From assembly GCF_000591055.1 (NCBI RefSeq), contig NC_020388.1:124001-188000 (forward strand): DNA of 64,000 nt. The letters are read 5' to 3'. Below the pieces are notes generated by a model that was given only the letters and a program-made list of their open reading frames with translations, was not told the DNA's origin and searched no databases. Positions 18,154 to 30,282 of the stretch are shown here, piece by piece. The DNA comes from Natronomonas moolapensis 8.8.11 (GTDB lineage Archaea > Halobacteriota > Halobacteria > Halobacteriales > Haloarculaceae). The first letter of the stretch is position 1. Each line of letters opens with the position of its first letter. Position numbers and translations under genes: made by a program.

Positions 18154-19164
18154 TCAAACTAGGACGGTGATGTCCGAGACCGCCGACGATACCGCGTCGG
18201 TGGGCCCGCCGAGCCGGGATTGATTCCCGTCGGATCGGTCGGTTGCCGCTCTCACACGCCGGGGCACGCTGCCCGTATACAGGGGGAACTGATCGCGCAG
18301 GAGGTATCCGTGTTCTTCGAGATACGCCCCGGTCGTGTGGACGCCGAACACGGAGACTGCAGCGTCGCTCGCGTGCCGAATTGTCGAGCCGTAACTGATT
18401 ACTCCACCCTGGACGGCCTGGCCACTCGGCAGTGTGTACGACGTCCTCGAGTACCAGTCTTCGGCGTACTGCGGATTACTCAGATCGATTTGATCCGGCA
18501 ACTCGATGTAGTCGTACCCGCGCTCGACGGCCATGTTGCGGTAGGCGATCGCCGCGTCGATGGATCCGGTCTCGAACTGGCTGATCAGCGACGTTTCAGG
18601 GTAGATCTGGTCGCGCTCGAGAATCTGTGCTCCGAGATCCGACGCGCCGTCGTAGTACCGCGAGGCGAGTTCGAGCATAAAAAGGGCCCGGTATCCCAGC
18701 GGGTCCTGATCGGGGTCGGTTCGCCCGATAGCCACGTTACCGTCGAGCATCGGCTCGTACCAACGCTCGCTCCCGGCGTCGGCCAGGCGCTCCCCGCCCG
18801 TCGTGTCCGGATTGTATGCGATGACGACGGAGTTGCTGGTAAACACCGCGTGCCACGACGGCGAGAGCGGCTCTTCGAAGAGCGCCACGTCGGCGACCGA
18901 GACGATGTCGGGATCGCGTTGTCCCTCGTCGATCATTCGGGCGACAGCCGCAGAGCCGTGCGCTTCGATCTCGACGGGGACGTCTACGGCCGGTCTGAGC
19001 CCGTTGGCCAGCGCGTTCTGGAGGCTGCCGGCCGCGAGAATGGCGATCGTCGTCGATCGGCGGCCGTCCCGATCGCTCGCACCCGTACAGCCCGCACTGC
19101 AAGTGACCGCCGCTCCAGCAGCCAGGAGGACCCGTCGTCGCGTGGTCGGAGGTCTATCACCCAT
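18154..19164 (-). CDS. molybdate/tungstate-type ABC substrate-binding lipoprotein
   Basis: A 336-residue exported binding protein. The N-terminus has a twin-Arg motif (TTRRRVLL, residues 7-14) and a lipobox ending at C26 (CSAGC), so it is probably a Tat-exported lipoprotein. The body is a type II periplasmic binding fold: AILAAGSLQNALANGL, VSVADVALFEEPL, NSVVIAYNPDT, a GRTDPDQDPLGYRAL ligand loop and AIAYRNMAVERGYDYIELP, all typical of WtpA/ModA. The ATG at 19164 is preferred over TTG at 19173 because it lies 26 nt from the TATA centre. Confidence 0.85.
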   Translation of the reverse strand: MGDRPPTTRRRVLLAAGAAVTCSAGCTGASDRDGRRSTTIAILAAGSLQNALANGLRPAVDVPVEIEAHGSAAVARMIDEGQRDPDIVSVADVALFEEPLSPSWHAVFTSNSVVIAYNPDTTGGERLADAGSERWYEPMLDGNVAIGRTDPDQDPLGYRALFMLELASRYYDGASDLGAQILERDQIYPETSLISQFETGSIDAAIAYRNMAVERGYDYIELPDQIDLSNPQYAEDWYSRTSYTLPSGQAVQGGVISYGSTIRHASDAAVSVFGVHTTGAYLEEHGYLLRDQFPLYTGSVPRRVRAATDRSDGNQSRLGGPTDAVSSAVSDITVLV

Positions 19165-19395: not shown

Positions 19396-22032
19396 ATGAC
19401 AGACGACTCCACTCAGCCACCAAACAAACCGGGCACGGACGAACAGGACACCGAGGAAGAAAGTCTCCGAGCGAAAGTGCAACGGCTCGAATCGCTGGTC
19501 GAACACCAACAGGCCATTATCGAGGAGTTACAGGCGCGCCAGGACACAGACGGCGAGGACGCGTCCGAAAGCGCGGAACAGGAGACTCCGGCGGAAGACG
19601 AACCCACCACGGACGAAGGGCTGTCGACGCCAGTCAGCCGCCGGGGTGTGCTAACGACAGGCGGAGCGCTTGGCTTGCTCGGCATCGGTGCGGGGTCGGC
19701 AAGAGCGGACCCGTCGGGCCAAATTGGAACGAGCAGCAACCCACTGAACACACTGTACACGGAGGAACTCAGCGGTGGCGTCACCGACGACACGTCACTG
19801 ACGAACATCGCCGGGTCGAACCTCTCAATCGACAACTCGGGGAATCTCAACGCCTCGGGCGGTGGTGGGGGGGGCAAGTGGGCCGATGGCAGTTCGGGCA
19901 GTAGCTGGCTCGAACCGTCCGACAGCGGCGATACCAAGATCGAAGGCATCGACACCATCAAGAACGCGGGGGGGTCATTAACGCTCCAGGCGTCCTCCGG
20001 CAGCGGCGTCACCATCAACACCGATGGCGGCACGCGCGCACTCAACCTCGGCGTCCCTACCGACGACGATGACGACAACACCGCTGGCGCGAACGTCGTG
20101 GCCGGCCACGCGGACAACATGGTCAACAACTCCGCTGCCGGCGTGGTTATTGCAGGTGGCGGTGCCGCGGGCAACGGACACTCAGTCGGTAATGACTATG
20201 CGACTGTCGGGGGCGGTCGGGGAAATAGCGCGGTGGATGCCGGTGACACCGTCGCCGGTGGCGAGAACAACACCGCGAATGCAAACGACTCTAGGGGTTT
20301 ACCGGCAACCGTTGGCGGTGGGTCGGGCAACGAGGCAATAGCCATCAACACCACAGTTGCTGGCGGGAGCGGCAACACCGCAGATGGCTCGATCGCGACG
20401 ATCGGTGGTGGGGATGGGAATAATGCCAGTGGCACCTATTCGACCATTGGAGGTGGCCAGAACAACAAATCGAATGGGGACTATGCGTGTATCCCGGGCG
20501 GCGAGGGCAACACGGCAAGTGGCTCAGGGTCATTCGCCGCGGGCCAGTGGGCGAAGGCAGAAGACGACAAATCGTTCGTCTGGAACGACGGGAGCGGTGC
20601 CACTGACGCCACCGGTGACTCATCGGACAAGTTCTCCTCCAATACGAATTTCAATTCCACGCCCGCCGGGGATAACTCATTCAGCGTGAAAGCCACCGGC
20701 GGCGTTCGCTTCGTCACCAGCGGCGACAACACGAGTCACGCCTACGTCGATACGGGCGGGAACGTGGTGGCGAGCAACAACCTCGACGCCCAGGGCGGCA
20801 CCGTCGAAAACACGACGGGCGGGCTGACGCTCAAGCAAAACGGGACGCAGGCACTGAAACTCCTCGATGGAAGTTCCAGTATATCGCCCAGTTCCGACGG
20901 CGCTACTCCACCGAATGTCATCGGTGGGCATCCCAGCAATAATACTGGGGGCAACGAGGTCAAAGGTGTAACAATCGCCGGTGGTGGTGGCGACTATGAT
21001 AATAGCTGGGACAACACGGCGAGTGACTGGTGGGCGACCGTCGGTGGCGGCCTCAAAAACACGGCCAGCAATACCCAAGCGACCGTCGGTGGTGGTCAGG
21101 ATAACACGGCCAGCGGGAGCAGAGCGACCGTCGCCGGAGGGTATTATAATACAGCTAGCAGTTCCCAAGCGACTGTCGCCGGCGGCAGCAAAAACACGGC
21201 CAAGGGTGGCAATCAACCGACCGTCGCAGGCGGCTTAAGTAACACTGCAAACGGAGACCGCGTGACAGTCGGTGGGGGCAGCCAGAACGAGGCCAGCGGG
21301 GAGCATTCGACCGTCGGCGGAGGCAGAGTGTGCACGGCAAGTGGGAATTTTTCGACCGTTCCTGGCGGTCATTACGCCGACGCCACTGGAACGAAATCGT
21401 TTGCAGCAGGATCTTCTGCAACAGCCAGCAATGACGGGGCATTCGTCTGGGGCGACAGCTCAGACACTTCTGTGGAGTCGAGTGCGAACGACCAGGTCAT
21501 CTTCCAGGCCGGGGGAACCAGGGACAGCGGGACAGCAGTCGAATTTTACTCACAGAGCGACGAGGACGCAGACGCAGGTGTTTCTCTGGATGCCAATGGC
21601 GGAGGGTGGAACTCGCTGTCGTCGCGGGCGGCCAAAACTGACGTCGACCCAGTCTCGGGATCGGAAGTTCTCGAAGAAATCGAACAACTCGAGGTCAGCA
21701 CCTGGCGATACGACGGCCAGGACGAGTCAATCCTGCATATGGGACCGATGGCCGAGGACTTCCACGAGGCGTTCGGTCTCGGCTCCAGTGAAGAGACTAT
21801 CAACACTGTCGACGCCGACGGCGTCGCGCTGGCAGCCATCAAGGGTCTCTCACAGAAACTCGACGACAAAGACGAGCGCATCGAGGGTCTCGAAGCCGAA
21901 ACGGACGATCTCCGAGCCGAGAACGAACAACTGCAGGAGCGCAACGCCGACCTCGAAGACCGACTGGCGGCCGTCGAGGCGGAACTCGGCATCGACGCGA
22001 CGGCTAGCCAGCAGGGGGTCGCCGATGACTAA
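19396..22032 (+). CDS. trimeric adhesin-like surface protein 1: Tat signal, YadA-type head repeats, S74-like chaperone domain
   Basis: An 878-residue protein. Residues 1-75 are an acidic N-terminal extension with a coiled coil (22-49, SLRAKVQRLESLVEHQQ). A Tat-type signal follows (SRRGVL at 81-86, hydrophobic core to 100, likely cut after SARA). Two blocks of YadA-like head repeats (about 268-385 and 545-680) repeat ATVGGGxxNxASG about every 14-16 residues. Each block ends in an SFAAG...FVW motif. Residues about 740-822 form an intramolecular-chaperone-like domain (VSTWRYDGQDES, HMGPMAEDFHEAFGLG, INTVDADGVALAAIKGL), then a coiled coil (818-865). The S-D pair expected at the self-cleavage site reads S-S (SSRAAK). 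Such proteins form trimeric stalks; attachment or cell-contact is inferred. Gly/Asn content differs from neighbouring core genes. Confidence 0.8.
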   Translation: MTDDSTQPPNKPGTDEQDTEEESLRAKVQRLESLVEHQQAIIEELQARQDTDGEDASESAEQETPAEDEPTTDEGLSTPVSRRGVLTTGGALGLLGIGAGSARADPSGQIGTSSNPLNTLYTEELSGGVTDDTSLTNIAGSNLSIDNSGNLNASGGGGGGKWADGSSGSSWLEPSDSGDTKIEGIDTIKNAGGSLTLQASSGSGVTINTDGGTRALNLGVPTDDDDDNTAGANVVAGHADNMVNNSAAGVVIAGGGAAGNGHSVGNDYATVGGGRGNSAVDAGDTVAGGENNTANANDSRGLPATVGGGSGNEAIAINTTVAGGSGNTADGSIATIGGGDGNNASGTYSTIGGGQNNKSNGDYACIPGGEGNTASGSGSFAAGQWAKAEDDKSFVWNDGSGATDATGDSSDKFSSNTNFNSTPAGDNSFSVKATGGVRFVTSGDNTSHAYVDTGGNVVASNNLDAQGGTVENTTGGLTLKQNGTQALKLLDGSSSISPSSDGATPPNVIGGHPSNNTGGNEVKGVTIAGGGGDYDNSWDNTASDWWATVGGGLKNTASNTQATVGGGQDNTASGSRATVAGGYYNTASSSQATVAGGSKNTAKGGNQPTVAGGLSNTANGDRVTVGGGSQNEASGEHSTVGGGRVCTASGNFSTVPGGHYADATGTKSFAAGSSATASNDGAFVWGDSSDTSVESSANDQVIFQAGGTRDSGTAVEFYSQSDEDADAGVSLDANGGGWNSLSSRAAKTDVDPVSGSEVLEEIEQLEVSTWRYDGQDESILHMGPMAEDFHEAFGLGSSEETINTVDADGVALAAIKGLSQKLDDKDERIEGLEAETDDLRAENEQLQERNADLEDRLAAVEAELGIDATASQQGVADD

Positions 22033-22177
22033 CGACACTGACCCCATCACGCTCACCGTCGAGATCGACCCGGCGGAGTTCGACGAACCGCGCCAGATGA
22101 TGTTCGAGCGACTGGTCGGGGAGTGCAGACAGGTCCGACCGAGAGTTGAAATAGCGAGGCGACCAACCAAGGCATAG
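22025..22177 (+). pseudogene. truncated copy N1 of the 90-aa adhesin-operon protein
   Basis: The ATG overlaps the adhesin 1 stop by 8 nt, exactly as in the intact copy at 27973. The first 31 residues (MTNDTDPITLTVEIDPAEFD...FERLVG) match the intact 90-aa protein. At about 22118 the match ends abruptly. The sequence then becomes leader A of the HicBA module, so the frame runs on only to GECRQVRPRVEIARRPTKA. Confidence 0.8.
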
Positions 22178-22203
22178 GAATGGCGAAGACCGACGATACT
22201 TCG
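22111..22203 (+). promoter_or_regulatory. leader A, copy 1: promoter and antitoxin start shared with the RelE module
   Basis: This segment is closely matched at 24901-24992. Shared parts are gtcggggagtgca, acaggtcc, the TATA-like tt(g/c)aaata, and a coding start that gives MAKTDDT in both antitoxins. The TATA-like element (about 22147-22153) is about 30 nt from the ATG, so the transcript should be nearly leaderless. Confidence 0.65.
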
Positions 22204-22449
22204 GCGGAAAGCCAGACGATTGAACTCGTCGAGAACCCCCGTGGGAGCTGGACAGCCAGAGACGAGGCGACCGGCGTCGCGAGCCAGGGGGAGACGCGCG
22301 AGGAAGCGCTGGAAAATCTCGACGAAGCCGTCGCACTCTACCGTGGCGAAATCGGCCACGAACCCACCGACGAGGAACTCCGTGAACTGGGGGTTGACCC
22401 CGAGGTTGCACGCTCACAGGACGGCGAACTGCCGGACGTCCTCGAATAG
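22180..22449 (+). CDS. hicB: HicB family antitoxin
   Basis: An 89-residue protein with the HicB partial-RNase-H-like core: IELVENPRGSWTARDEATGVASQGETREEALENLDEAVA in two overlapping stretches of strand and helix, then an acidic tail with a DELRELG-like helix. It should neutralise the adjacent HicA and repress the operon. The stop is immediately followed by the HicA ATG (TAGATG). The first seven residues, MAKTDDT, are also the start of the unrelated antitoxin at 24969, which indicates a shared leader. This is one of two HicBA modules in the array. Confidence 0.85.
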   Translation: MAKTDDTSAESQTIELVENPRGSWTARDEATGVASQGETREEALENLDEAVALYRGEIGHEPTDEELRELGVDPEVARSQDGELPDVLE

Positions 22450-22704
22450 ATGGGCACGCGAGACTTTTCCGGCGAGGATGTATATAAAGTGCTGGTCAAC
22501 GCAGGGAACTTCGAGCACGTGAGGACGAGTGGGAGCCACGTTATCGTCGAGTGGACGCCACCACCCGATCACGATACCGAACCGCGACGGGTCACGGTTC
22601 CCCTGCACGACCGCATCGACCTCGGCACGTTACAGAGTATCGCCGAGCAGGCAGGCGCAAACGACTTCGATTCCTTCTGTGCGTGGGTCGACCGGCACCG
22701 CTGA
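22450..22704 (+). CDS. hicA: HicA family mRNA interferase toxin
   Basis: An 84-residue dsRBD-fold toxin. It starts RDFSGEDVYKVLVNAGNFE after the initial MGT and has the catalytic-His motif SGSH (H30). The later VPLHDRIDLGTLQSIAEQAG segment is characteristic of archaeal HicA, which cleaves mRNA in a translation-independent manner. It is directly adjacent to hicB without spacer. Its closest relative in the window is the inverted HicA at 23043, sharing the DRI(D)xGTLxSIAEQ(S/A)GA...FCAW(V/I)DRHR end. Confidence 0.88.
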   Translation: MGTRDFSGEDVYKVLVNAGNFEHVRTSGSHVIVEWTPPPDHDTEPRRVTVPLHDRIDLGTLQSIAEQAGANDFDSFCAWVDRHR

Positions 22705-22707
22705 CAG

Positions 22708-22783
22708 TAATCAGATTTTGGCCGGAGCAGAATCCGTCGACGCAGAGACGCTGACAGACCTGTCGGGAGGGTTGGATGGCTGA
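22708..22783 (+). pseudogene. possible C-terminal remnant C1 of the 90-aa protein
   Basis: Immediately after hicA the frame reads NQILAGAESVDAETLTDLSG and then GLDG and a stop. It aligns loosely with the end of remnant C2 (DQIDVTDQQGVNPDALTD) and with the intact C-terminus ending GGIDD. As in the intact operon, a new ATG (ATGGCTGA) overlaps the stop. The similarity is short and weak. Confidence 0.35.
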
Positions 22784-22844
22784 ACGACCCGTCTGGGGCA
22801 GTTGCCGTGCGCTTCGAAGAGAGTCGTAGCGGATACAGCACGGA

Positions 22845-22865
22845 AACCCACTCTAGCCGTGGGTT
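22845..22865. repeat. perfect 7-bp stem-loop, IS200/IS605-end-like
   Basis: aacccac and gtgggtt enclose a 7-nt loop (tctagcc). Hairpins with a cccac...gtggg stem and a ctctagcc-type loop are found at ends of haloarchaeal IS200/IS605-type elements. No transposase gene is present, so this could be a leftover end or an unrelated hairpin. It sits immediately before gene remnant C2. Confidence 0.4.
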
Positions 22866-22867
22866 AG

Positions 22868-23023
22868 CTTATCGGCACGAACCTCAGTCAGGACCGCACC
22901 GCACAGGGCAGACACATCAGCAAAGCGCTGTGGGACAACCATGACCAGATTGACGTGACCGACCAGCAGGGCGTCAACCCGGACGCTCTGACCGACGAGG
23001 AGGAGAGCGATGACGGTCGGTAG
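22868..23023 (+). pseudogene. C-terminal remnant C2 of the 90-aa protein
   Basis: The frame reads LIGTNLSQDRTAQG, then HISKALWDNHDQIDV, ending DEEESDDGR and stop. The intact protein at 27973 has LVGANLSQNLTAQG and INAMWDNRDQIQV at the same place. Neither a start codon nor the N-terminal half is attached; the N-terminal piece N1 lies 750 bp upstream, on the far side of hicBA. Confidence 0.75.
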
Positions 23024-23042
23024 CGCGACAGATGCTGGCCTG

Positions 23043-23291
23043 TCAGCGATGCCGGTCGATCCACGCACAGAACGCGTCGAAGTCACGCGCACCCGACTGC
23101 TCGGCAATCGACCGCAGTGTTCCGGTGTCGATGCGGTCGTGCATCGGCACGCTCACCACCCGGATATCCTCGTCGTTGGTCGGATGCTCGTACCGGAGTT
23201 TGACGTGACTACCCGTCCGGTCGACGATCAAAAACCGGTTTTTTGTGAGGGCTTTGACGACCTCACGGCCGGAGAAGTCTCTGGACGGCAT
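23043..23291 (-). CDS. hicA: HicA family toxin (second module, inverted)
   Basis: An 82-residue HicA protein beginning MPSRDFSGREVVKAL, with the RTGSH motif (His29) and the VPMHDRIDTGTLRSIAEQSG segment. It lies 8 nt downstream of its hicB on the minus strand. It faces the remains of the 90-aa gene tail end-to-end. It is related to, but clearly diverged from, the HicA at 22450, so the two modules are not a recent duplication. Confidence 0.87.
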   Translation of the reverse strand: MPSRDFSGREVVKALTKNRFLIVDRTGSHVKLRYEHPTNDEDIRVVSVPMHDRIDTGTLRSIAEQSGARDFDAFCAWIDRHR

Positions 23292-23299
23292 CGGCGCTG

Positions 23300-23599
23300 T
23301 TATCGCATGAACTCCGGCAGTTCGTCTGTGTCGTCCCGGGCCTGCGCTATTTCGTCGGGGTCGATTCCCAACTCCCGAAGTACCTCGCGTTCTGCTTCTG
23401 GAGAGTCGATTGAATCGCTGGTTTCACCCCGGTGGAGGGCGAGGGCTTCGTCGAGGTTTTCGAGTGCCTCGACGCGCGTCTCGCTCTGGCTAGCGACGCC
23501 CGACTCGATGTCTGTTGCCACCCACAGCTTCCCCGAGCTGACGAGCCGAATCTCCTGTCTCGGCCCGTCATCGTCGCCTTCGGCCCTCGAACTCGCCAT
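23300..23599 (-). CDS. hicB: HicB family antitoxin (second module, inverted)
   Basis: A 99-residue HicB-like protein. Its core IRLVSSGKLWVATDIESGVASQSETRVEALENLDEALALH resembles the other HicB and is followed by an acidic C-terminal tail with LRELGIDPDEI. The ATG at 23599 lies 26 nt from a minus-strand TATA box (cttttatt), so translation is predicted from a leaderless mRNA. The first residues MASSRAEGDD closely match MASSTADGDD of the unrelated MntA at 24716, because both genes start inside the same repeated leader. Confidence 0.83.
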   Translation of the reverse strand: MASSRAEGDDDGPRQEIRLVSSGKLWVATDIESGVASQSETRVEALENLDEALALHRGETSDSIDSPEAEREVLRELGIDPDEIAQARDDTDELPEFMR

Positions 23600-23765
23600 A
23601 CACAGGTGTAGGCCGGAATCGAATAAAAGGGTTCGCACGGGGAGGCCCTCAGTATCGACGCGAGCGGGACCAGTCCCGTGTGAGGGTGATCGCTAATGAG
23701 TGACGACGCCCCTGCGTCTATCACCCTGCCCGTCGAAATCGATCCGGCGGAGTCCGACCAGTTAC
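23587..23765. repeat. leader B, copy 1: direct repeat with TA promoter and start of the broken 90-aa gene
   Basis: This segment is repeated at 24704-24880. A run of about 45 bp (tcgaactcgccatacacagg...) is identical except at one position. The repeat carries the minus-strand TATA box (aataaaag at 23622-23629), the first codons of the antitoxin on one side, and the start of the broken 90-aa gene (N2) on the other. The two copies flank the HepT-MntA module. Confidence 0.8.
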
Positions 23766-23810
23766 GAGTCAATAGACGGGCGACTGGTCGAGAAACAGGC
23801 GCGCGGTGCA
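23696..23810 (+). pseudogene. N-terminal remnant N2 of the 90-aa protein, frameshifted
   Basis: It starts MSDDAPASITLPVEIDPAESD, matching MTDDTDPITLTVEIDPAEFD of the intact copy. After that the frame is lost; the expected RLVE segment reappears in another frame (gactggtcgag). The rest of the gene is missing, replaced by the end of the inverted HepT gene. Confidence 0.75.
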
Positions 23811-23832
23811 ACTGGTCGATACGGTCTCATCC

Positions 23833-24279
23833 TCACTCCAGTATCCCGGTGTCATCGAGATATTCGCGTACAGCAAAGAGAAAGTCTCGATACCGGTCGA
23901 GGTCCTGTAACGCGTCGTAGACATCGTCGTCCTTGATGGCGTTCCCGTAGGTATGTGCGAGAACGTTCCGGAAGCGCGCTACTTGGGTCATCCGCTCCGT
24001 GGTCGCGTCATCGAGTACGTCCACGCGTCCCAGTGCGACCATCACTGCCGGGTTGCTATCTGGTTGGACCCCTCGTTCGTGGCCGACGAGTGTCCGTGCG
24101 ATGTCGAGGGCCGCCTCGGTCAACTTGACGAACCGGCGCTCGACGATATCGCGCGCCGCCCGGTCGGTCATGTACTCTTAACGGGACAGCGATTGTTTGC
24201 CAGCAAGCACCGCCAGACTCGTTTCCATCGTCTTGACAGCGCTGACGATGCGTTCGATATCGTCGTCGGAGAGAGTCAT
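23833..24279 (-). pseudogene. hepT: HepT-type HEPN toxin split by an in-frame stop codon
   Basis: The gene reads from an ATG at 24279, which overlaps the mntA stop as ATGA. A first helix MTLSDDDIERIVSAVKTMET runs to KQSLSR, then TAA (24180-24178), then in the same frame EY and MTDRAARDIVERRF to the end at 23833. HepT proteins normally have this N-terminal helix joined to the SxEEYxxDxxxxDIVERRF segment, so the TAA lies inside the expected protein. The catalytic RNxxxH motif (R68-N69-V-L-A-H73 counted from the inner ATG at 24171) is intact. The inner ATG could give a 112-residue protein lacking helix 1. Confidence 0.8.
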
Positions 24280-24716
24280 GCGAGATGGTCGTCGATAGAC
24301 GCGAGGGCGTCGTCGAACCGTTCTGCCGGCGACCGGCGGTCTTCGGTCGCGTCGTCCAGCAGTGTTTCGTGGAGATGACTGGCCGCTTCGTCGGTGCCGA
24401 CGACTAGCTTCCCGTCGCGAAATATCGCACGGAGAAGCGCCGGCGGTGCCGAACGAAGGTCGACCACGTCGACATCGTCGGTTCCGAGCGCGAGTGCCAG
24501 ATCGGCACCCACCCCGAGGCGTGCATCCAGGTGTCCGGACTCGCCCGGTTGACAGTTCTCGAACGCAATCGCAACGTCGATATCACTATATTTGTGACTC
24601 TCGCCGCGCGCGCGGGAACCGAACACGATTCCGACCGAAACAGGATGGGAAGCAAGCACTGACTCGACGGTCTCGAGCCAGTCGATGTCGTCTCCGTCCG
24701 CGGTCGAACTCGCCAT
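24276..24716 (-). CDS. mntA: MntA family nucleotidyltransferase antitoxin
   Basis: A 146-residue minimal nucleotidyltransferase with the motif GSRARGESHKYSDIDVAI (GSxARG and DxD), typical of MntA antitoxins. These block HepT by adenylylating its active-site Tyr region. The N-terminus MASSTADGDD comes from the shared leader B. The stop overlaps the start of hepT by 4 nt. The TATA box is at 24739-24746 on the minus strand, 26 nt from the ATG. Confidence 0.86.
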   Translation of the reverse strand: MASSTADGDDIDWLETVESVLASHPVSVGIVFGSRARGESHKYSDIDVAIAFENCQPGESGHLDARLGVGADLALALGTDDVDVVDLRSAPPALLRAIFRDGKLVVGTDEAASHLHETLLDDATEDRRSPAERFDDALASIDDHLA

Positions 24717-24880
24717 ACACAGGTGTAGGCCGGAATCGAATAAAAGAGTTCGGAGGGGATCCCCTCGGTATCGACGCGAGCGGGACCAGTCCCGTGTGGG
24801 AGTGATCGCCGACGACCGACGACGCCCCTGAGCCTATCACGCTCACCGCCGAAATCGACCCGGCGGCGTTCGACGAGCGA
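24704..24880. repeat. leader B, copy 2
   Basis: Direct repeat of 23587-23765. It contains the minus-strand promoter and first codons of mntA on the left and the start-codon-less N3 remnant on the right. With leader A copy 2 (24901-24992) it forms a hub between divergent mntA and the RelE-type module. Confidence 0.8.
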
Positions 24881-24918
24881 CGGCAGTTGGTGTTCAAGCA
24901 ACTCGTCGGGGAGTGCAA
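24812..24918 (+). pseudogene. N-terminal remnant N3 of the 90-aa protein, start codon lost
   Basis: The in-frame sequence TTDDAPEPITLTAEIDPAAF then DERRQLVFKQLVGE matches the intact 90-aa protein. The position of the ATG is occupied by ACG (24812-24814). The match stops after the LVG codons, as in N1, and continues into leader A. Confidence 0.75.
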
Positions 24919-24992
24919 ACAGGTCCAACCGAGGGTTCAAATACGAACGAGCCCAACCATTACACAGAATGGCGAAGACGGACGACACAGCG
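24901..24992 (+). promoter_or_regulatory. leader A, copy 2: promoter and antitoxin start of the RelE module
   Basis: It matches 22111-22203 in front of hicBA. The TATA-like ttcaaata (24936-24943) lies about 29 nt from the ATG at 24969. The first seven codons encode MAKTDDT in both modules, although the following antitoxins are unrelated. Confidence 0.65.
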
Positions 24993-25118
24993 GACGACCC
25001 AGATGAAGACGAGATGCTCCCCGACGAGGCAGAGGCGATTGCACAGCGCCTCGACAGCCTCGACGACGAACAGCGGCGTTCGCTGTCAGACGTGGCCGAC
25101 GCCCTAGACGACGAGTAA
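24969..25118 (+). CDS. small antitoxin of the RelE/ParE module, 49 aa
   Basis: The sequence is MAKTDDTADDPDEDEMLPDE followed by AEAIAQRLDSLDDEQRRSLSDVADALDDE. It is a very acidic, helical protein too short for most annotation cut-offs. Its stop shares one base with the toxin start (TAATG), the usual coupling of antitoxin and toxin. It has no recognisable DNA-binding domain, so repression of its own promoter is uncertain. The antitoxin role is inferred from size and position. Confidence 0.65.
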   Translation: MAKTDDTADDPDEDEMLPDEAEAIAQRLDSLDDEQRRSLSDVADALDDE

Positions 25119-25450
25119 TGCCGCGTGCGCCGTCGTCGCTCGAATTTCTTCCGGAAGCACAGGCAGACCTCGAACGCATCGACGACCACAATCCCGACCA
25201 CGCCGAGCGGATTCTGGGGAAGATTGCCGACTGGGACGAGAAGATCGGCTGGGGTCGAGTCCCACAGGAACACCTGACGTTCCTCACCGACTCGCCCACG
25301 GGACACAACTTCTACCGCGAGCGCGTCGGCAACAGTGGCTATCGAGTCATCTACGAAATCTCCGACGACGTGATGACGGTCGTCGCCGTGCTTCCGAAAA
25401 GCGACAACACCTACGACCTCTCGGCACTCGCGCGGCGAGCGTCGGAGTAG
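25118..25450 (+). CDS. RelE/ParE family toxin
   Basis: A 110-residue protein with the RelE/ParE fold pattern: an N-terminal strand (SLEFLPEAQADLERI), two helices (DHAERILGKIADWDEKI), then the basic strand region YRERVGNSGYRVIYEISDDV and VVAVLPKSDNTYDLS. The central Arg/Tyr residues are those expected for a ribosome-dependent RNase or gyrase poison; which of the two cannot be told. It is coupled to the 49-aa antitoxin by a one-base overlap. Confidence 0.82.
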   Translation: MPRAPSSLEFLPEAQADLERIDDHNPDHAERILGKIADWDEKIGWGRVPQEHLTFLTDSPTGHNFYRERVGNSGYRVIYEISDDVMTVVAVLPKSDNTYDLSALARRASE

Positions 25451-25465
25451 AATCCCCAGGGGTTC

Positions 25466-25547
25466 ATACGAATTGCTGTAGTCCCTTACCAGAATCGCCG
25501 GCCACCGGGTCGGCCGATTACTGGTACACAGCTACAGCAATCCGTAT
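25466..25547. mobile_element. 82-bp MITE-like palindrome
   Basis: The termini atacgaattgctgtag and ctacagcaatccgtat are inverted copies with one mismatch. Inside, ttaccag...ggcc and ggtcggc...ctggta continue the symmetry, so almost the whole 82 bp folds on itself. It has no coding capacity. Its right end directly abuts gene remnant C3. The pattern fits a miniature inverted-repeat element; the parent IS is not in the window and no clear target duplication is seen. Confidence 0.65.
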
Positions 25548-25548
25548 C

Positions 25549-25640
25549 AGTCAGGACCGCACCGCACAGGGGCTGCAGTTGGTCACCGCACTGTGGGACA
25601 ACCACGACCAGATTACCGTCGAGCAAGGGAACAGACAACT
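25549..25640 (+). pseudogene. C-terminal remnant C3 of the 90-aa protein
   Basis: The frame reads SQDRTAQGLQLVTALWDNHD then QITVEQGNRQ, matching NLSQNLTAQG...AMWDNRDQIQV of the intact gene. The left boundary is the MITE end. The N-terminal partner is N3, on the other side of the RelE module. Confidence 0.7.
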
Positions 25641-25677
25641 GCCAGTCTCAGCGACGAGTGTTCATGTGTGCATATTG

Positions 25678-25790: not shown

Positions 25791-27980
25791 ATGACAGACG
25801 ACACCACTCGGCAACCAAACGAACAGGGCACGGACGAACAGGACACCGAGGACGAGAGTCTCCGAGCGAAAGTGCAACGGCTCGAATCCTTGGTCGAACA
25901 CCAACAGCAGACTATCGAGGAGCTAGAGGCGCACCAAGAGACAGACAGCGCGGACGCGTCCGAAAGCGTGGACCAGGAGACTCCGGCGGAAGACGAGACC
26001 ACAACGGACGAAGGACTGTCGACGCCAGTCGGCCGCCGGGGCGTGCTGACGGCGACCGGAGCGCTTGGCCTGCTCGGACTGGGTGCGGGCTCGGCGAGTG
26101 CGGACGCGTCGGGGAAGATTGGGACGAGCAGCGACCCGCTGAACACACTCTACACAGATGAACTCAACGGCGGCGTCACCGGCGACACGTCACTGACGAA
26201 CATCGCCGGGTCGGGACTGACCATCGATGGCTCCGGGAATCTCAACGCCTCGGGCGGTGGAGGCGGCGGCAAGTGGGCCGATGGCACTTCGGGCGGTAGC
26301 TGGCTCGAACCGTCCGAGAGCAGCGATACCAAGATCGAAGGCATCGACACCATCCAGGCGTTCTCGGGCAGCGGCGTCACCATCAACACAAACGGGGGCG
26401 ATCGCGCGCTGGAACTGGGTGTGCCGTCGAGTGACGGCACCAACACGGCAGGCGGGAATGTCGTCGCTGGTCACCCAAACAATGCGGTGAACAATGGGGC
26501 CGTCGGCTCGGTCATCGGCGGTGGTGGCAGCGACGGTAGCTCCGGCAGTATCACCTTCGAGAACACTGTCGAGGACAACTACAGCGTCGTCGTCGGCGGG
26601 CTAGCCAATCAGGCCGGCAGTACCGGAAGCGACGAGACGAACGCGATTTATGCGACCGTCGGCGGTGGTGCCGGAAACAGTGCTAGCGGTAACTCTTCGA
26701 CCGTCGGCGGAGGTCAAAGTAACAATGCCAGCGCCACGCAATCGACCGTCGGCGGCGGGAGCAGAAACGATGCCACCAAAATCAATGCGACCATCGGCGG
26801 TGGGTTCCAGAACGAAGCCAGCGGTAGCTCTTCGACCGTCAGCGGCGGGAACAGTAACACTGCCGGGGGAAATGATGCGACCGTTCCTGGTGGCAACCAA
26901 AACGATGCAGTCGGCGACCATTCGTTTGCTGCGGGTCGGTATGCCAGGGCCGAAGACGCAAACGCCTTCACATGGAACGACGGCAGTGGAGCCACCGAGT
27001 CGGAGGGAAGTTCGAGTCTGAGCGACAAGTTCTCTTCCTCGACAACGAGCGGCATTTCGAGTGGCCCCTCGGGCGCAGAGACCTTCAGCGTGAAAGCCAA
27101 AGGCGGTGTGCGCTTCGTCACCAGCGGCGACAACACGAGTCACGCCTATGTTGACGATAGTGGGAATCTTACAGCCAGTGGGAACTTCGACGCCCAGGGC
27201 GGCACCGTCCAGAACACAACGGGCGGGCTGACGGTCACAACCAACGATAAAGGCGACCTCACACTCGACCCGGGGGAGAGCAACAACGTCGACATCGAGA
27301 ACGGCCATCTCGACCTCAAAGGCAACAACATCGAATGTACGTCCGAACCGGGGACCGATTTCAAAGCCCAGGTCGATGCTGACGGAGATGGGGAAGATGG
27401 TCAAGTCTCCTTTATCTTCCCCGACAAAGGCAGCTCAGAGGAGATCAAGTGGGCTCGGGACGCTCTAAACGATGACGCGTTCCGCGTCAGGGACGCGAAT
27501 AATGATACACCTCTTTTCACTGTCAACGACGGCGGCACGGTCGATATCCACAACGGCGATCTCGATATGAAAGAGTCGGGGAGCGTCACCAACACCTCCG
27601 ACCGTCGTCTCAAAACCGCCATCGAGCCAATTCAGGACGCCGTCGCAAAACTGTGCGAACTCGAAGCGGCGACCTACTCTTGGGAGGATGAGGACACGCC
27701 GGACGACCGCGAAGCGGGTGTCATCGCCCAGTCGGTCCAGCGCGTCCTCCCCGAAGCAGTCTCGGAGGACGAGGACGGCTACCTGAACCTCGCCTACAGA
27801 CAGTTGACTCCGCTGCTCATCGAGGCGACACAAGAACAGCAGGGCCATATCGAGAACCTCGAAGCCGAGAACGAACAGCTACGGGAGCGCAACGCCGACC
27901 TCGAAGACCGACTAGCGGCCGTCGAGGCGGAACTCGGCATCGACGCGACGGCCAGCCAGCAGGGAGTCGCCGATGACTGA
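25791..27980 (+). CDS. trimeric adhesin-like surface protein 2 with S74-type self-cleaving chaperone domain
   Basis: A 729-residue paralogue of the protein at 19396. The N-terminal 170 residues are nearly the same: acidic coiled-coil extension, Tat-type GRRGVLTATGALGLLG at 81-96, and likely cleavage after SASA. There is one block of YadA-like head repeats (about 283-400, SSTVGGGQSNNASATQ type). Residues 603-680 form a canonical intramolecular chaperone domain: SDRRLKTAIEPI with the Ser-Asp pair, TYSWEDED, GVIAQSVQRVLPEAV and LTPLLIEATQEQ. The final coiled coil (680-716) and tail ATASQQGVADD are identical in type to copy 1. It begins a four-gene operon with 8-nt overlaps. Confidence 0.83.
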   Translation: MTDDTTRQPNEQGTDEQDTEDESLRAKVQRLESLVEHQQQTIEELEAHQETDSADASESVDQETPAEDETTTDEGLSTPVGRRGVLTATGALGLLGLGAGSASADASGKIGTSSDPLNTLYTDELNGGVTGDTSLTNIAGSGLTIDGSGNLNASGGGGGGKWADGTSGGSWLEPSESSDTKIEGIDTIQAFSGSGVTINTNGGDRALELGVPSSDGTNTAGGNVVAGHPNNAVNNGAVGSVIGGGGSDGSSGSITFENTVEDNYSVVVGGLANQAGSTGSDETNAIYATVGGGAGNSASGNSSTVGGGQSNNASATQSTVGGGSRNDATKINATIGGGFQNEASGSSSTVSGGNSNTAGGNDATVPGGNQNDAVGDHSFAAGRYARAEDANAFTWNDGSGATESEGSSSLSDKFSSSTTSGISSGPSGAETFSVKAKGGVRFVTSGDNTSHAYVDDSGNLTASGNFDAQGGTVQNTTGGLTVTTNDKGDLTLDPGESNNVDIENGHLDLKGNNIECTSEPGTDFKAQVDADGDGEDGQVSFIFPDKGSSEEIKWARDALNDDAFRVRDANNDTPLFTVNDGGTVDIHNGDLDMKESGSVTNTSDRRLKTAIEPIQDAVAKLCELEAATYSWEDEDTPDDREAGVIAQSVQRVLPEAVSEDEDGYLNLAYRQLTPLLIEATQEQQGHIENLEAENEQLRERNADLEDRLAAVEAELGIDATASQQGVADD

Positions 27981-28245
27981 CGACACTGACCCCATCACGC
28001 TCACCGTCGAAATCGACCCGGCGGAGTTCGACGAACCGCGCGAGATGATGTACGAACGACTGGTCGAGGCGTTCGGCCACGAAACCGTCGCGGAACTCGT
28101 CGGCGCGAACCTGAGTCAGAACCTCACCGCACAGGGGATGGGCATCATCAACGCAATGTGGGACAATCGCGACCAGATTCAGGTCGACCCCGAGGGCGTC
28201 GACCCACCAGAGGTTCCAGACCAGCCCGGAGGTATCGATGACTGA
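27973..28245 (+). CDS. 90-aa adhesin-operon protein, intact copy
   Basis: A 90-residue acidic protein: MTDDTDPITLTVEIDPAEFD, then a helical YERLVEAFGHETVAELVGAN segment, a conserved LSQNLTAQGMG and MWDNRDQIQV motif, and a Pro/Gly-rich tail. The ATG overlaps the adhesin stop by 8 nt (ATGACTGA), and its own end overlaps the next gene by 8 nt. I recognise no known family. Its strict linkage to the adhesin gene, seen at both adhesin loci, suggests a chaperone or partner role. Several broken copies (N1-N3, C1-C3) lie between 22.0 and 25.6 kb. Confidence 0.75.
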   Translation: MTDDTDPITLTVEIDPAEFDEPREMMYERLVEAFGHETVAELVGANLSQNLTAQGMGIINAMWDNRDQIQVDPEGVDPPEVPDQPGGIDD

Positions 28246-28558
28246 CGGCGATGCAGAACCCACGGTTGCGGAGTTACGCGCCACGCTCGCTGACAGGACC
28301 GCCCGCATCGACGAACTGGCGGCGACCCTGAAAGACGCCGAAACGCGCATTAGCCACCAGCGCGAGCGCGTCGACCAGCTAGAGGGCGACCTGGTCAACA
28401 AAGACCGGCGCATCGAGGCCTTAGCGACTTCGAACGACCAACTGTGGAACCGCCTGAGTGGTGTCGAGGACGACACCAACAGTAACGGCATTCAGGAGGC
28501 GACGACAGATGCTGAGTGTGGGACCGTCGCCACAACGCAACAGGAGAACAATGAGTAA
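28238..28558 (+). CDS. coiled-coil protein, 106 aa
   Basis: An acidic helical protein with continuous heptads from about residue 8 to 75 (VAELRATLADRTARIDELAA, then RERVDQLEGDLVNKDRRIEA). The C-terminal 30 residues are polar and Asn/Thr-rich. There is no signal peptide. It resembles the cytoplasmic coiled coil at the adhesin N-terminus in general character and might pair with it; this is inference. Starts and stops overlap both neighbours by 8 nt. Confidence 0.7.
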   Translation: MTDGDAEPTVAELRATLADRTARIDELAATLKDAETRISHQRERVDQLEGDLVNKDRRIEALATSNDQLWNRLSGVEDDTNSNGIQEATTDAECGTVATTQQENNE

Positions 28559-29930
28559 CTCATCACCAGCCCGTCAGGGCACCGGTCTGCTTGCGACACT
28601 ACTGGTCGCACTGCTGGTACTGTCAGCGGTTGTGGCCTCTCTCGGGTTCGCGCCCGTCGGCACCGCCAATGCCAACACCGGCGTCCACTATGTCACCGAC
28701 TCCGGCCTGGAGGTCGAAGACGCAAGCGGCGGCGATGCCCCCAGAAACGAGGAAGCCTTCCCGGACGCTAATACACTCGATCTTCCGGGGATTACGCTGT
28801 CTGCGGACGGAACCGCCTTGATGACCCTCGACCAGCGCCAGGGGAGCCAGACCAAACTCTCGGATATCACCGCGGGCTCGGATATCACGGTCGATCCCGA
28901 CGACAAACAGGCCATCGTGGTGACAAGCGAGTTCAATTCGCTTGATTTCGCCAGCGCCAACTACGACGCGTCAAATTCGGACTCCGACCTCACCTACGAC
29001 GCCGAGAGTTCGGCCAGCCTGACGGTGCGAGAAACCGGACTGCCAGAGGGAAGGACAGTCGAGGCAATTGATCCGTCCACGGACACCGTACTCGACAGCG
29101 CCGATGTCGACAGCAATGGCGATGTCTCGTTTATGTCGCTGCCGAGTGGCAACCACGAGGTACGACTGGAGGATACGTCGACGCAGTCTTCCGGTGGCAG
29201 TGATGACGACGGGGATAGCGCCAGTGACGTCGGGGACGAAGGAGATACCCCCGATAACGGCGGTGACAGTAGTGACGACGGGGATAGCGCCAGTGATGTC
29301 GGGGACGAGGGAGATACCCCCGATAACGGCGGTGACGACGGGGACAGCGGCGATGACGGGGTGGAAGACGGTGGCGATGAGACCAGTGGCCCACGGGAGC
29401 CAAGCGGTGAAACGAGTGGGGACGAAGAGTGGGTCGAACCTTCCGAGTTTCACGCAGTCGATATCGTGGACGTGCAGCTAGTAACCGCCCCCGCAAACAG
29501 CGTGAACGCGACGAGCATCGTCACGCTGGACAATCCATCCACGGACGACCAGCGGACCGACGTCCGGTTCGTCATCGACGGTGAGGTCGTCGAAGAACGT
29601 GACGTCGTGGTTCCGGGCACAGAACGGGTGAACGTGACCCACAGCGAGATCCTCGAGGAGCCCGGCACCCACGAGTCGGCCTCGAATATCGCCACGAGAG
29701 CGGACGACGGTGGAATTATCCGCACCTACGACTTCGAGATCGGATCCGTCGAACTCGACGAGGACGGGACCGAACTCGCCAGTTCGAGTGCTGTCCCACC
29801 GTCCGGTCCTGACGACGCGGACACTGGTGAAGCTGCGAACGCACGGGGAACTCTGTCGTTCGCCCTGCTCGGATTGGTGGCTCTGGTCGCTGTCATACTG
29901 GGGGCACTCTACTGGCGTCGCTCCGACTAG
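28551..29930 (+). CDS. cell-surface protein with N-terminal signal and C-terminal membrane anchor
   Basis: A 459-residue protein. Residues 12-33 are a Sec-type hydrophobic signal, probably cleaved near ANAN (39-42). A beta-rich region with a small carboxypeptidase-regulatory-like repeat (SLTVRETGLPEGRTVEA, SLPSGNHEVRLED) follows. Then comes an Asp/Gly/Ser linker with two 23-residue repeats and a CARDB-like domain (about 305-410, TLDNPSTDDQRTDVRFVIDG). The C-terminal helix (about 434-455, FALLGLVALVAVILGALYW) ends in RRSD. This layout is usual for haloarchaeal surface proteins anchored at the membrane. As last gene of the operon it may hold or display the adhesin trimer. Confidence 0.75.
   Translation: MSNSSPARQGTGLLATLLVALLVLSAVVASLGFAPVGTANANTGVHYVTDSGLEVEDASGGDAPRNEEAFPDANTLDLPGITLSADGTALMTLDQRQGSQTKLSDITAGSDITVDPDDKQAIVVTSEFNSLDFASANYDASNSDSDLTYDAESSASLTVRETGLPEGRTVEAIDPSTDTVLDSADVDSNGDVSFMSLPSGNHEVRLEDTSTQSSGGSDDDGDSASDVGDEGDTPDNGGDSSDDGDSASDVGDEGDTPDNGGDDGDSGDDGVEDGGDETSGPREPSGETSGDEEWVEPSEFHAVDIVDVQLVTAPANSVNATSIVTLDNPSTDDQRTDVRFVIDGEVVEERDVVVPGTERVNVTHSEILEEPGTHESASNIATRADDGGIIRTYDFEIGSVELDEDGTELASSSAVPPSGPDDADTGEAANARGTLSFALLGLVALVAVILGALYWRRSD
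29205..29342. repeat. 69-bp in-frame tandem repeat (two units)
   Basis: Two consecutive 69-bp units, differing at a few positions, encode the 23-residue DDGDSASDVGDEGDTPDNGG-type repeat in the linker of the surface protein. Being a multiple of 3, copy-number change would alter linker length without breaking the frame. Confidence 0.85.
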
Positions 29931-30282
29931 ACAAACACAACAGGATTTCACTCACGATCGTCGGTAGCTCTCACCAGTTATGAGTGCTTACTCGGTTTTA
30001 GACTCGTTTTCAGTTCACTCCGACAGCGCTGGATGGGGGCTGCCACGCTGAGTGTCTTGATCACTTCAGCTCCCGAACGACGATCTCGACCGACCTGCTC
30101 CTGTCGAGGTCTCCATACACGCCGACACCCGCATTCGCAGCGCTACGAGTACGATTTGGTATCGCGATATTTGATTTATGATTTTGTTCGCCCCGGCGGT
30201 CCTCCGAGCCCTGTCGAGGCATCTGACGTGTGTCAGACGCCGGGGAAAAATACTTTATGCGCGTACGCGACATCGGCAAATA
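29931..30282. other. 352-bp region between the surface-protein operon and ftsZ1
   Basis: A lower-GC stretch that marks the right edge of the accessory island. A minus-strand frame (30061-30279) ends VYGDLDRSRSVEIVVRELK and might be the tail of a decayed gene, but nothing identifies it. Near the right end are an A/T-rich segment (tatttgatttatgattttg) and the ftsZ1 promoter. Confidence 0.5.
30251..30259 (+). promoter_or_regulatory. TATA box of ftsZ1
   Basis: The element tactttatg is centred about 28 nt upstream of the ftsZ1 ATG, so the mRNA should be leaderless or nearly so. A run gggaaaaa directly precedes it. Confidence 0.6.

Follow-up and report, generated by a model that had tools for sequence, protein, structure and literature searches.

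How might a haloarchaeon hold a probable trimeric fibre on its surface when the fibre protein lacks the YadA-type C-terminal membrane anchor? The question is raised by a four-gene locus of Natronomonas moolapensis 8.8.11, located in the 64,000-nucleotide (nt) stretch of contig NC_020388.1 (positions 124,001 to 188,000) that we analysed and refer to as the window. The locus encodes a fibre protein (adhesin 2), a protein of 90 amino acids (aa) named p90, a coiled-coil protein (cc) and a membrane protein with a conserved ectodomain (ED), the ED anchor. From the domains and the genome-level co-occurrence described below, we infer that the locus probably encodes a two-component surface fibre, in which a trimer exported by twin-arginine translocation (Tat) would be docked on the membrane-bound ED anchor. 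The four genes are as follows.

25791..27980, + strand: fibre gene ('adhesin 2'), 729 aa
27973..28245, + strand: p90 gene, 90 aa
28238..28558, + strand: cc gene, 106 aa
28551..29930, + strand: ED anchor gene, 459 aa

Co-occurrence of the fibre and the ED anchor

We searched 394 haloarchaeal genomes with a profile of the ED and a profile of the fibre N-terminus, which comprises a coiled coil, the Tat signal and a docking segment with the consensus GxxGTxxxPLxxLYT. The docking-region profile replaced a simple Tat regular expression, which was not specific enough, as it matched 106 of 611 background genes. The ED profile detected 36 genomes from several families, 30 of them with E ≤ 1e-10. A strong docking segment (E ≤ 6e-14) was present in 24 genomes, and 22 of these also had an ED, compared to about 2 expected by chance (24 × 30/394). 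The remaining two genomes, without ED, contained decayed fragments only.

A fibre with docking segment was encoded within three genes and on the same strand for 30 of the 38 ED genes (some of these loci are near-identical copies). In the window the ED gene lies three genes downstream of the fibre gene, on the same strand. The fibre is farther from the ED in three more loci, with toxin-antitoxin genes in between (L079), with an interrupted fibre gene (L139) or at a distance of five genes (L159). In L139 (2479-6305) an IS200/IS605-like transposon is inserted in the fibre gene, which adjoins an intact ED gene. Fibres with a YadA head or S74 domain and without the docking segment were found at loci without ED. 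The pairwise distances of the EDs and of the docking segments were correlated (r=0.55 for 27 pairs, reached in 0 of 2000 permutations), and this was also the case for the 18 chromosomal pairs (r=0.43, again 0 of 2000).

Several observations weigh against a strict partnership of fibre and ED. Five ED genes (L146, L148, L155, L160, L161) had no docking-segment fibre nearby, and the two genes were unlinked in genome G314. The correlation of distances partly represents shared species history, and it was weak in the group of virus-like ED loci, for which 113 of 2000 permutations reached the observed value. Partners can be swapped, since the fibre and p90 of Halorhabdus salina (L080) are Natronomonas-like while the ED of this locus belongs to the opposite side of the tree. 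The fibre of Natronomonas sp. LN261 has no S74 domain.

A previous reading made from the sequence alone (the sequence-only reading) had proposed a four-gene surface system, consisting of a haloarchaeal trimeric adhesin, assembly factors and an anchor. Its fibre and anchor parts stood, but conservation of all four genes was not supported: the four-gene set was present in the window genome only, and the conserved unit is the fibre together with the ED anchor.

Domains of both proteins and proposed assembly

The following features were assigned to the fibre and the ED anchor (TM, transmembrane).

26034..26111, + strand: Tat signal of the fibre, with RR at residues 82-83, a hydrophobic core and the AxA-type site SASA|D
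26112..26160, + strand: docking segment GKIGTSSDPLNTLYTDEL, conserved, immediately after the Tat cleavage site
26646..26945, + strand: YadA/UspA1-type trimeric head repeats (UspA1 3pr7, E=3.9e-19)
27597..27761, + strand: Peptidase_S74 (intramolecular chaperone) with the Ser603/Lys608 dyad
28671..29192, + strand: conserved ectodomain ED, ~170 aa, from profile searches and the structure model
29330..29930 (+69 bp downstream), + strand: C-terminal linker/beta/TM part of the anchor, matching at the DNA level the end of a giant gene (L078 14844-15513)

Adhesin 2 has a cytoplasmic coiled coil, which sits in the hydrophilic n-region ahead of the Tat motif. Behind the Tat signal come, in this order, the docking segment, the head of YadA/UspA1 type, the S74 chaperone and a C-terminal coiled coil. 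The arginine pair of the Tat motif (R70 R71 in the numbering of the aligned segment) was invariant across 26 fibres, and nearly all chromosomal fibres had AxA-type cleavage sites. The docking-region profile (coiled coil, Tat and GxxGTxxxPL) matched adhesin 2 with E=1.1e-25. The description of adhesin 2 as a Tat-type trimeric head/chaperone protein in the sequence-only reading was supported by the matches to the UspA1 head (3pr7, E=4e-19) and to the Pfam family Peptidase_S74 (54.6 bits against a cut-off of 22, E=1e-14). The Pfam family UspA1_rep gave a weak match in adhesin 2 and a significant one in its relative L147. No YadA C-terminal membrane anchor was detected in the Pfam scan of adhesin 2, the C-terminus of which consists of S74 and coiled coil.

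For MYRF and endosialidases the catalytic Ser/Lys pair S578/K583 was described (PMC3742443). Self-cleavage of the S74 domain of the fibre is expected, because Ser603 and Lys608 show the same spacing of five residues. The C-terminal S74 domain with this pair and the best PHROG matches, which are phage tail fibres, connect adhesin 2 to S74 phage tail fibres and spikes (endosialidase; S16 long tail fibre 6f45). In contrast to these, adhesin 2 is encoded on a haloarchaeal chromosome with no tail genes nearby, and it has a Tat signal and a coiled-coil n-region. With the YadA/UspA1 trimeric autotransporter adhesins it shares the head repeats, the coiled-coil stalk segments and the logic of a surface adhesin. 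The bacterial adhesins use Sec and an outer-membrane barrel, whereas the window fibre has a Tat signal for export and is apparently anchored through a separate ED protein. Haloarchaeal YadA-like or S74 adhesins were not found described in the openly accessible literature.

The ED anchor consists of a signal peptide, the ED, an acidic repeat linker, a beta-rich domain and one C-terminal TM helix followed by WRRSD. This layout agrees with the membrane-anchored partner protein that had been suggested from the sequence. The structure model of the ED was all beta (pLDDT 95, pTM 0.90). A Foldseek search of PDB and BFVD with this model gave no match at E ≤ 0.001, and no known fold was assigned on this basis. 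No significant match was obtained with a profile against PDB sequences, and a search of IMG/VR (query A5) found no ED. The modelled ED may represent a new fold, or known sheets arranged in a new way; beta proteins that have been rearranged can escape detection by Foldseek.

The DNA at 29330-29999, which includes the C-terminus of the anchor, was 98.7% identical to the final part of a giant gene for a cadherin/PKD protein in the same genome (L078), as the result of a recent exchange. The giant gene (L078 9448-15444) encodes a 1998-aa cadherin/PKD surface protein, the final ~200 residues of which are nearly identical to the window anchor, and adjoins genes for a 7TM histidine kinase and a BAT-type response regulator. 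Unlike the window anchor, the giant proteins have neither an ED nor a fibre partner.

On this basis we propose the following assembly. The fibre would trimerise in the cytoplasm, started by the coiled coil ahead of the Tat motif and finished by the S74 chaperone. The folded fibre would then leave the cell via Tat, the signal would be cut at SASA|D, and the S74 tail would release itself by cutting before Ser603. The new N-terminus of the fibre (DASGKIGTSSDPLNTLYTDEL) would dock on the ED, which forms the outer part of a protein embedded in the membrane through its C-terminal TM helix. Facing outward, the exchangeable tip together with the YadA-like head would bind a surface or a partner. Elements resembling lemon-shaped viruses may use the fibre-ED pair with other tips as a receptor-binding device, and in some hosts the ED is connected to a histidine kinase. 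The p90 and cc proteins would be lineage-specific cytoplasmic helpers, which may aid fibre folding or export/Tat targeting.

ED proteins of virus-like elements and sensor kinases

The ED proteins formed two groups, a chromosomal one (22 of 38 loci) and a virus-like one (16 of 38 loci). All virus-like ED proteins have a C-terminal half of ~500 aa that is homologous to the 904-aa surface-type protein (WWZ16970.1) of Haloferax LSV-48N, a virus shedding lemon-shaped particles (PMC12714723). This half is absent from the window anchor and from all chromosomal EDs, and no other LSV structural genes were found in the window. Like the LSV-48N gene, the virus-like ED genes have small membrane proteins as neighbours, together with other LSV-like genes. 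Several of these loci are known plasmids (PL23 and plasmids of Natrinema sp. DC36, Halobaculum sp. CBA1158 and Halomicrobium urmianum). The chromosomal EDs, except for L080, form one clade (support 96/94). The tips of the chromosomal fibres belong to trimer-forming types (S74, YadA head, C1q), and most of these fibres have YadA-like heads.

The most abundant supernatant protein of LSV-48N is described as containing a beta-sandwich (residues 365-549) and as being similar at its C-terminus to an SSV19 tail protein (PMC12714723). By size and domains WWZ16970.1 is a candidate for this protein. The LSV-48N genome contained neither an ED nor a recognisable Tat fibre, and the N-terminus of its 904-aa protein consists of other domains. 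The ED and the separate fibre thus come and go together, and this pattern is the best, though indirect, evidence that holding the fibre is the purpose of the ED.

A surface protein of the LSV-48N type is encoded on the plasmids PL23 (N. pharaonis; L154/L158), NZ_CP084478 and NZ_CP090374 (L151 and L155), which probably are relatives of lemon-shaped viruses. G123, a genus mate of the window genome, carries the 23,486-bp contig of PL23. In Halomicrobium urmianum the viral-type ED gene is present four times on a 75.8-kb plasmid (L093; G065:C4, NZ_CP084093) and once on the chromosome. Those copies that were read share their flanking genes, as a multi-copy LSV-like element.

The close relatives G060, G061 and G063 have the ED fused to a 7TM histidine kinase (HisKA_7TM-HisKA-HATPase), of which it forms the extracellular part, and a second kinase gene follows the fusion. 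The window anchor differs from these archaeal HisKA_7TM kinases by its single C-terminal TM helix and the absence of a kinase. Kinase and/or BAT-type regulator genes flank L080 and L083 and also the giant-protein loci L078, L081 and L082. Neither was present among the genes called near the window locus. A constant association of histidine kinase genes with the fibre was rejected, as it does not apply to most chromosomal ED loci.

These data bear on three other explanations. The fibre could be self-sufficient, with the cell coat or a Tat signal that is not cleaved holding it in place, and the ED gene would encode an unrelated surface protein in the same operon. Some haloarchaeal Tat signals do persist as membrane anchors, and the fibre of G314 is intact with its ED far away. 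We nevertheless consider this unlikely in view of the pairing over several families in viral and chromosomal settings, the lack of ED where fibres lack the docking segment, and the AxA-type cleavage sites that almost every chromosomal fibre has. That the pair is left over from an integrated lemon-shaped virus and has no host role is very improbable. Although the ED and the docking segment of the fibre are common to LSV-48N-like elements, the chromosomal EDs form a clade apart from the viral EDs (96/94, L080 excepted), they lack the LSV C-terminal half and have no other LSV genes nearby. The chromosomal pairs are also intact and have YadA heads, and some EDs are fused to histidine kinases.

These fusions, each with an adjoining second kinase, and the kinase and/or BAT-type regulators beside L080, L083 and the three giant-protein loci would agree with a contact sensor, which mainly signals surface contact or a ligand instead of mediating adhesion. 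We regard this as improbable, since no kinase was among the genes called around the window locus and most chromosomal ED proteins have a single C-terminal TM helix and no cytoplasmic domain. We favour the two-component surface fibre. As many haloarchaea and also relatives of a lemon-shaped virus possess the fibre-ED pair, it looks like a receptor-binding device common to hosts and viruses. More tentatively, it may represent a class of receptor-binding apparatus with two components that has not been described before, in which a trimer exported via Tat is docked by its mature N-terminus on a membrane ectodomain of new fold. This apparatus would serve host adhesion, contact sensing where the ED is fused to a 7TM histidine kinase, and viral attachment.

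It is poorly known how non-pilus archaeal surface adhesins are built and retained, and the same is true of host attachment by the spindle-shaped viruses of haloarchaea. With the pair, specific proteins can be named, a docking motif is predicted and the partner domain has been modelled confidently, which makes both questions testable. The kinase fusions suggest that contact may be converted into a signal. The ED also allows annotators to spot LSV-48N-like elements that are currently listed as plasmids with hypothetical proteins.

Gene overlaps, small proteins and toxin-antitoxin modules

The four genes of the locus overlap successively by 8 nt, as stated in the sequence-only reading (ATGACTGA, ATGACTGA and ATGAGTAA), and co-transcription was supported. 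The third overlap (cc/anchor) depends on a translation start at 28551. We preferred this start because only there the anchor has its full signal peptide; the automatic gene caller picked 28632. To judge the overlaps, we used 490 pairs of neighbouring genes on the same strand, taken from the window and from the haloarchaeal loci that had been retrieved. Of these, 138 overlapped, 16 of them by 8 nt (12%), which was the third commonest length behind 4 and 1 nt. Common haloarchaeal gene ends '..DD*' (GATGACTGA) that meet starts 'MTD..' (ATGACTGAC) account for this length. The idea that the overlaps indicate a fixed stoichiometry was thus not supported. Three consecutive 8-nt overlaps are unusual (0.116 cubed, about 0.0016, given overlap) and mark a tightly packed operon. 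An 8-nt overlap of fibre and p90 recurs in Halorhabdus salina (L080 9161-9168), and fibre and ED genes overlap by 8 nt in L140 (6650-6657) and L149.

The p90 protein is acidic, without signal or TM helix, and probably helical; its structure model (pLDDT 49) gave nothing usable beyond this. We found p90 in 3 of 148 genomes of the family, namely the window genome, Natronomonas sp. LN261 and Halorhabdus salina FL145. The class-wide search of the 394 genomes added one marginal match, and no relative was present in viral contigs, so that p90 was rejected as a widespread assembly factor. The cc protein has neither a signal nor a TM helix. Its one significant relative is a paralogue in the same genome (L078 7552-7833), beside the giant cadherin/PKD protein. 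All matches outside the window genome were generic coiled coils, and cc was not retained as a conserved partner. With respect to the occurrence of the small genes without the adhesin, the two differed: p90 was located inside the fibre/ED locus in all three genomes and never outside, while the cc paralogue lies at L078, which has no fibre.

A second fibre gene, adhesin 1, lies upstream of adhesin 2. The two fibres are paralogous but differ in their S74 tips. In the interval separating their genes we found five p90 remnants, split by toxin-antitoxin modules in two places.

19396..22032, + strand: adhesin 1, paralogous fibre, 878 aa, different S74 domain with Ser742/Lys747
22025..22117, + strand: p90 remnant, residues 1-31, ends ahead of hicBA
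22859..22999, + strand: p90 remnant, residues 39-84, follows hicBA, internal stop
23696..23767, + strand: p90 remnant, residues 1-23
24815..24907, + strand: p90 remnant, residues 2-31, ahead of relBE
25546..25623, + strand: p90 remnant, residues 47-72, follows relBE

Adhesin 1 (end 22032) and the remnant of its own p90 gene also share an 8-nt overlap (ATGACTAA). Just upstream of adhesin 1, on the opposite strand, are genes for a solute-binding protein and an ABC transporter (window 18154-19164), with no sign of a link. The region 22025-25650 of the window contains four toxin-antitoxin modules amid the p90 remnants (hicBA, hicAB, HEPN/MNT and relBE). The hicBA and relBE modules each separate the two parts of a p90 copy, at roughly the same position in both cases (after residue 31). 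In LN261 relBE lies between two intact p90 copies, and hicAB adjoins the second one. A stabilising effect on the repeat array is one possible role of the modules; alternatively, p90 may serve them as a site of insertion. The HEPN/MNT module (window 23734-24784) showed 91% identity to L078 7881-8931, at the cc/giant-protein locus of the same genome.

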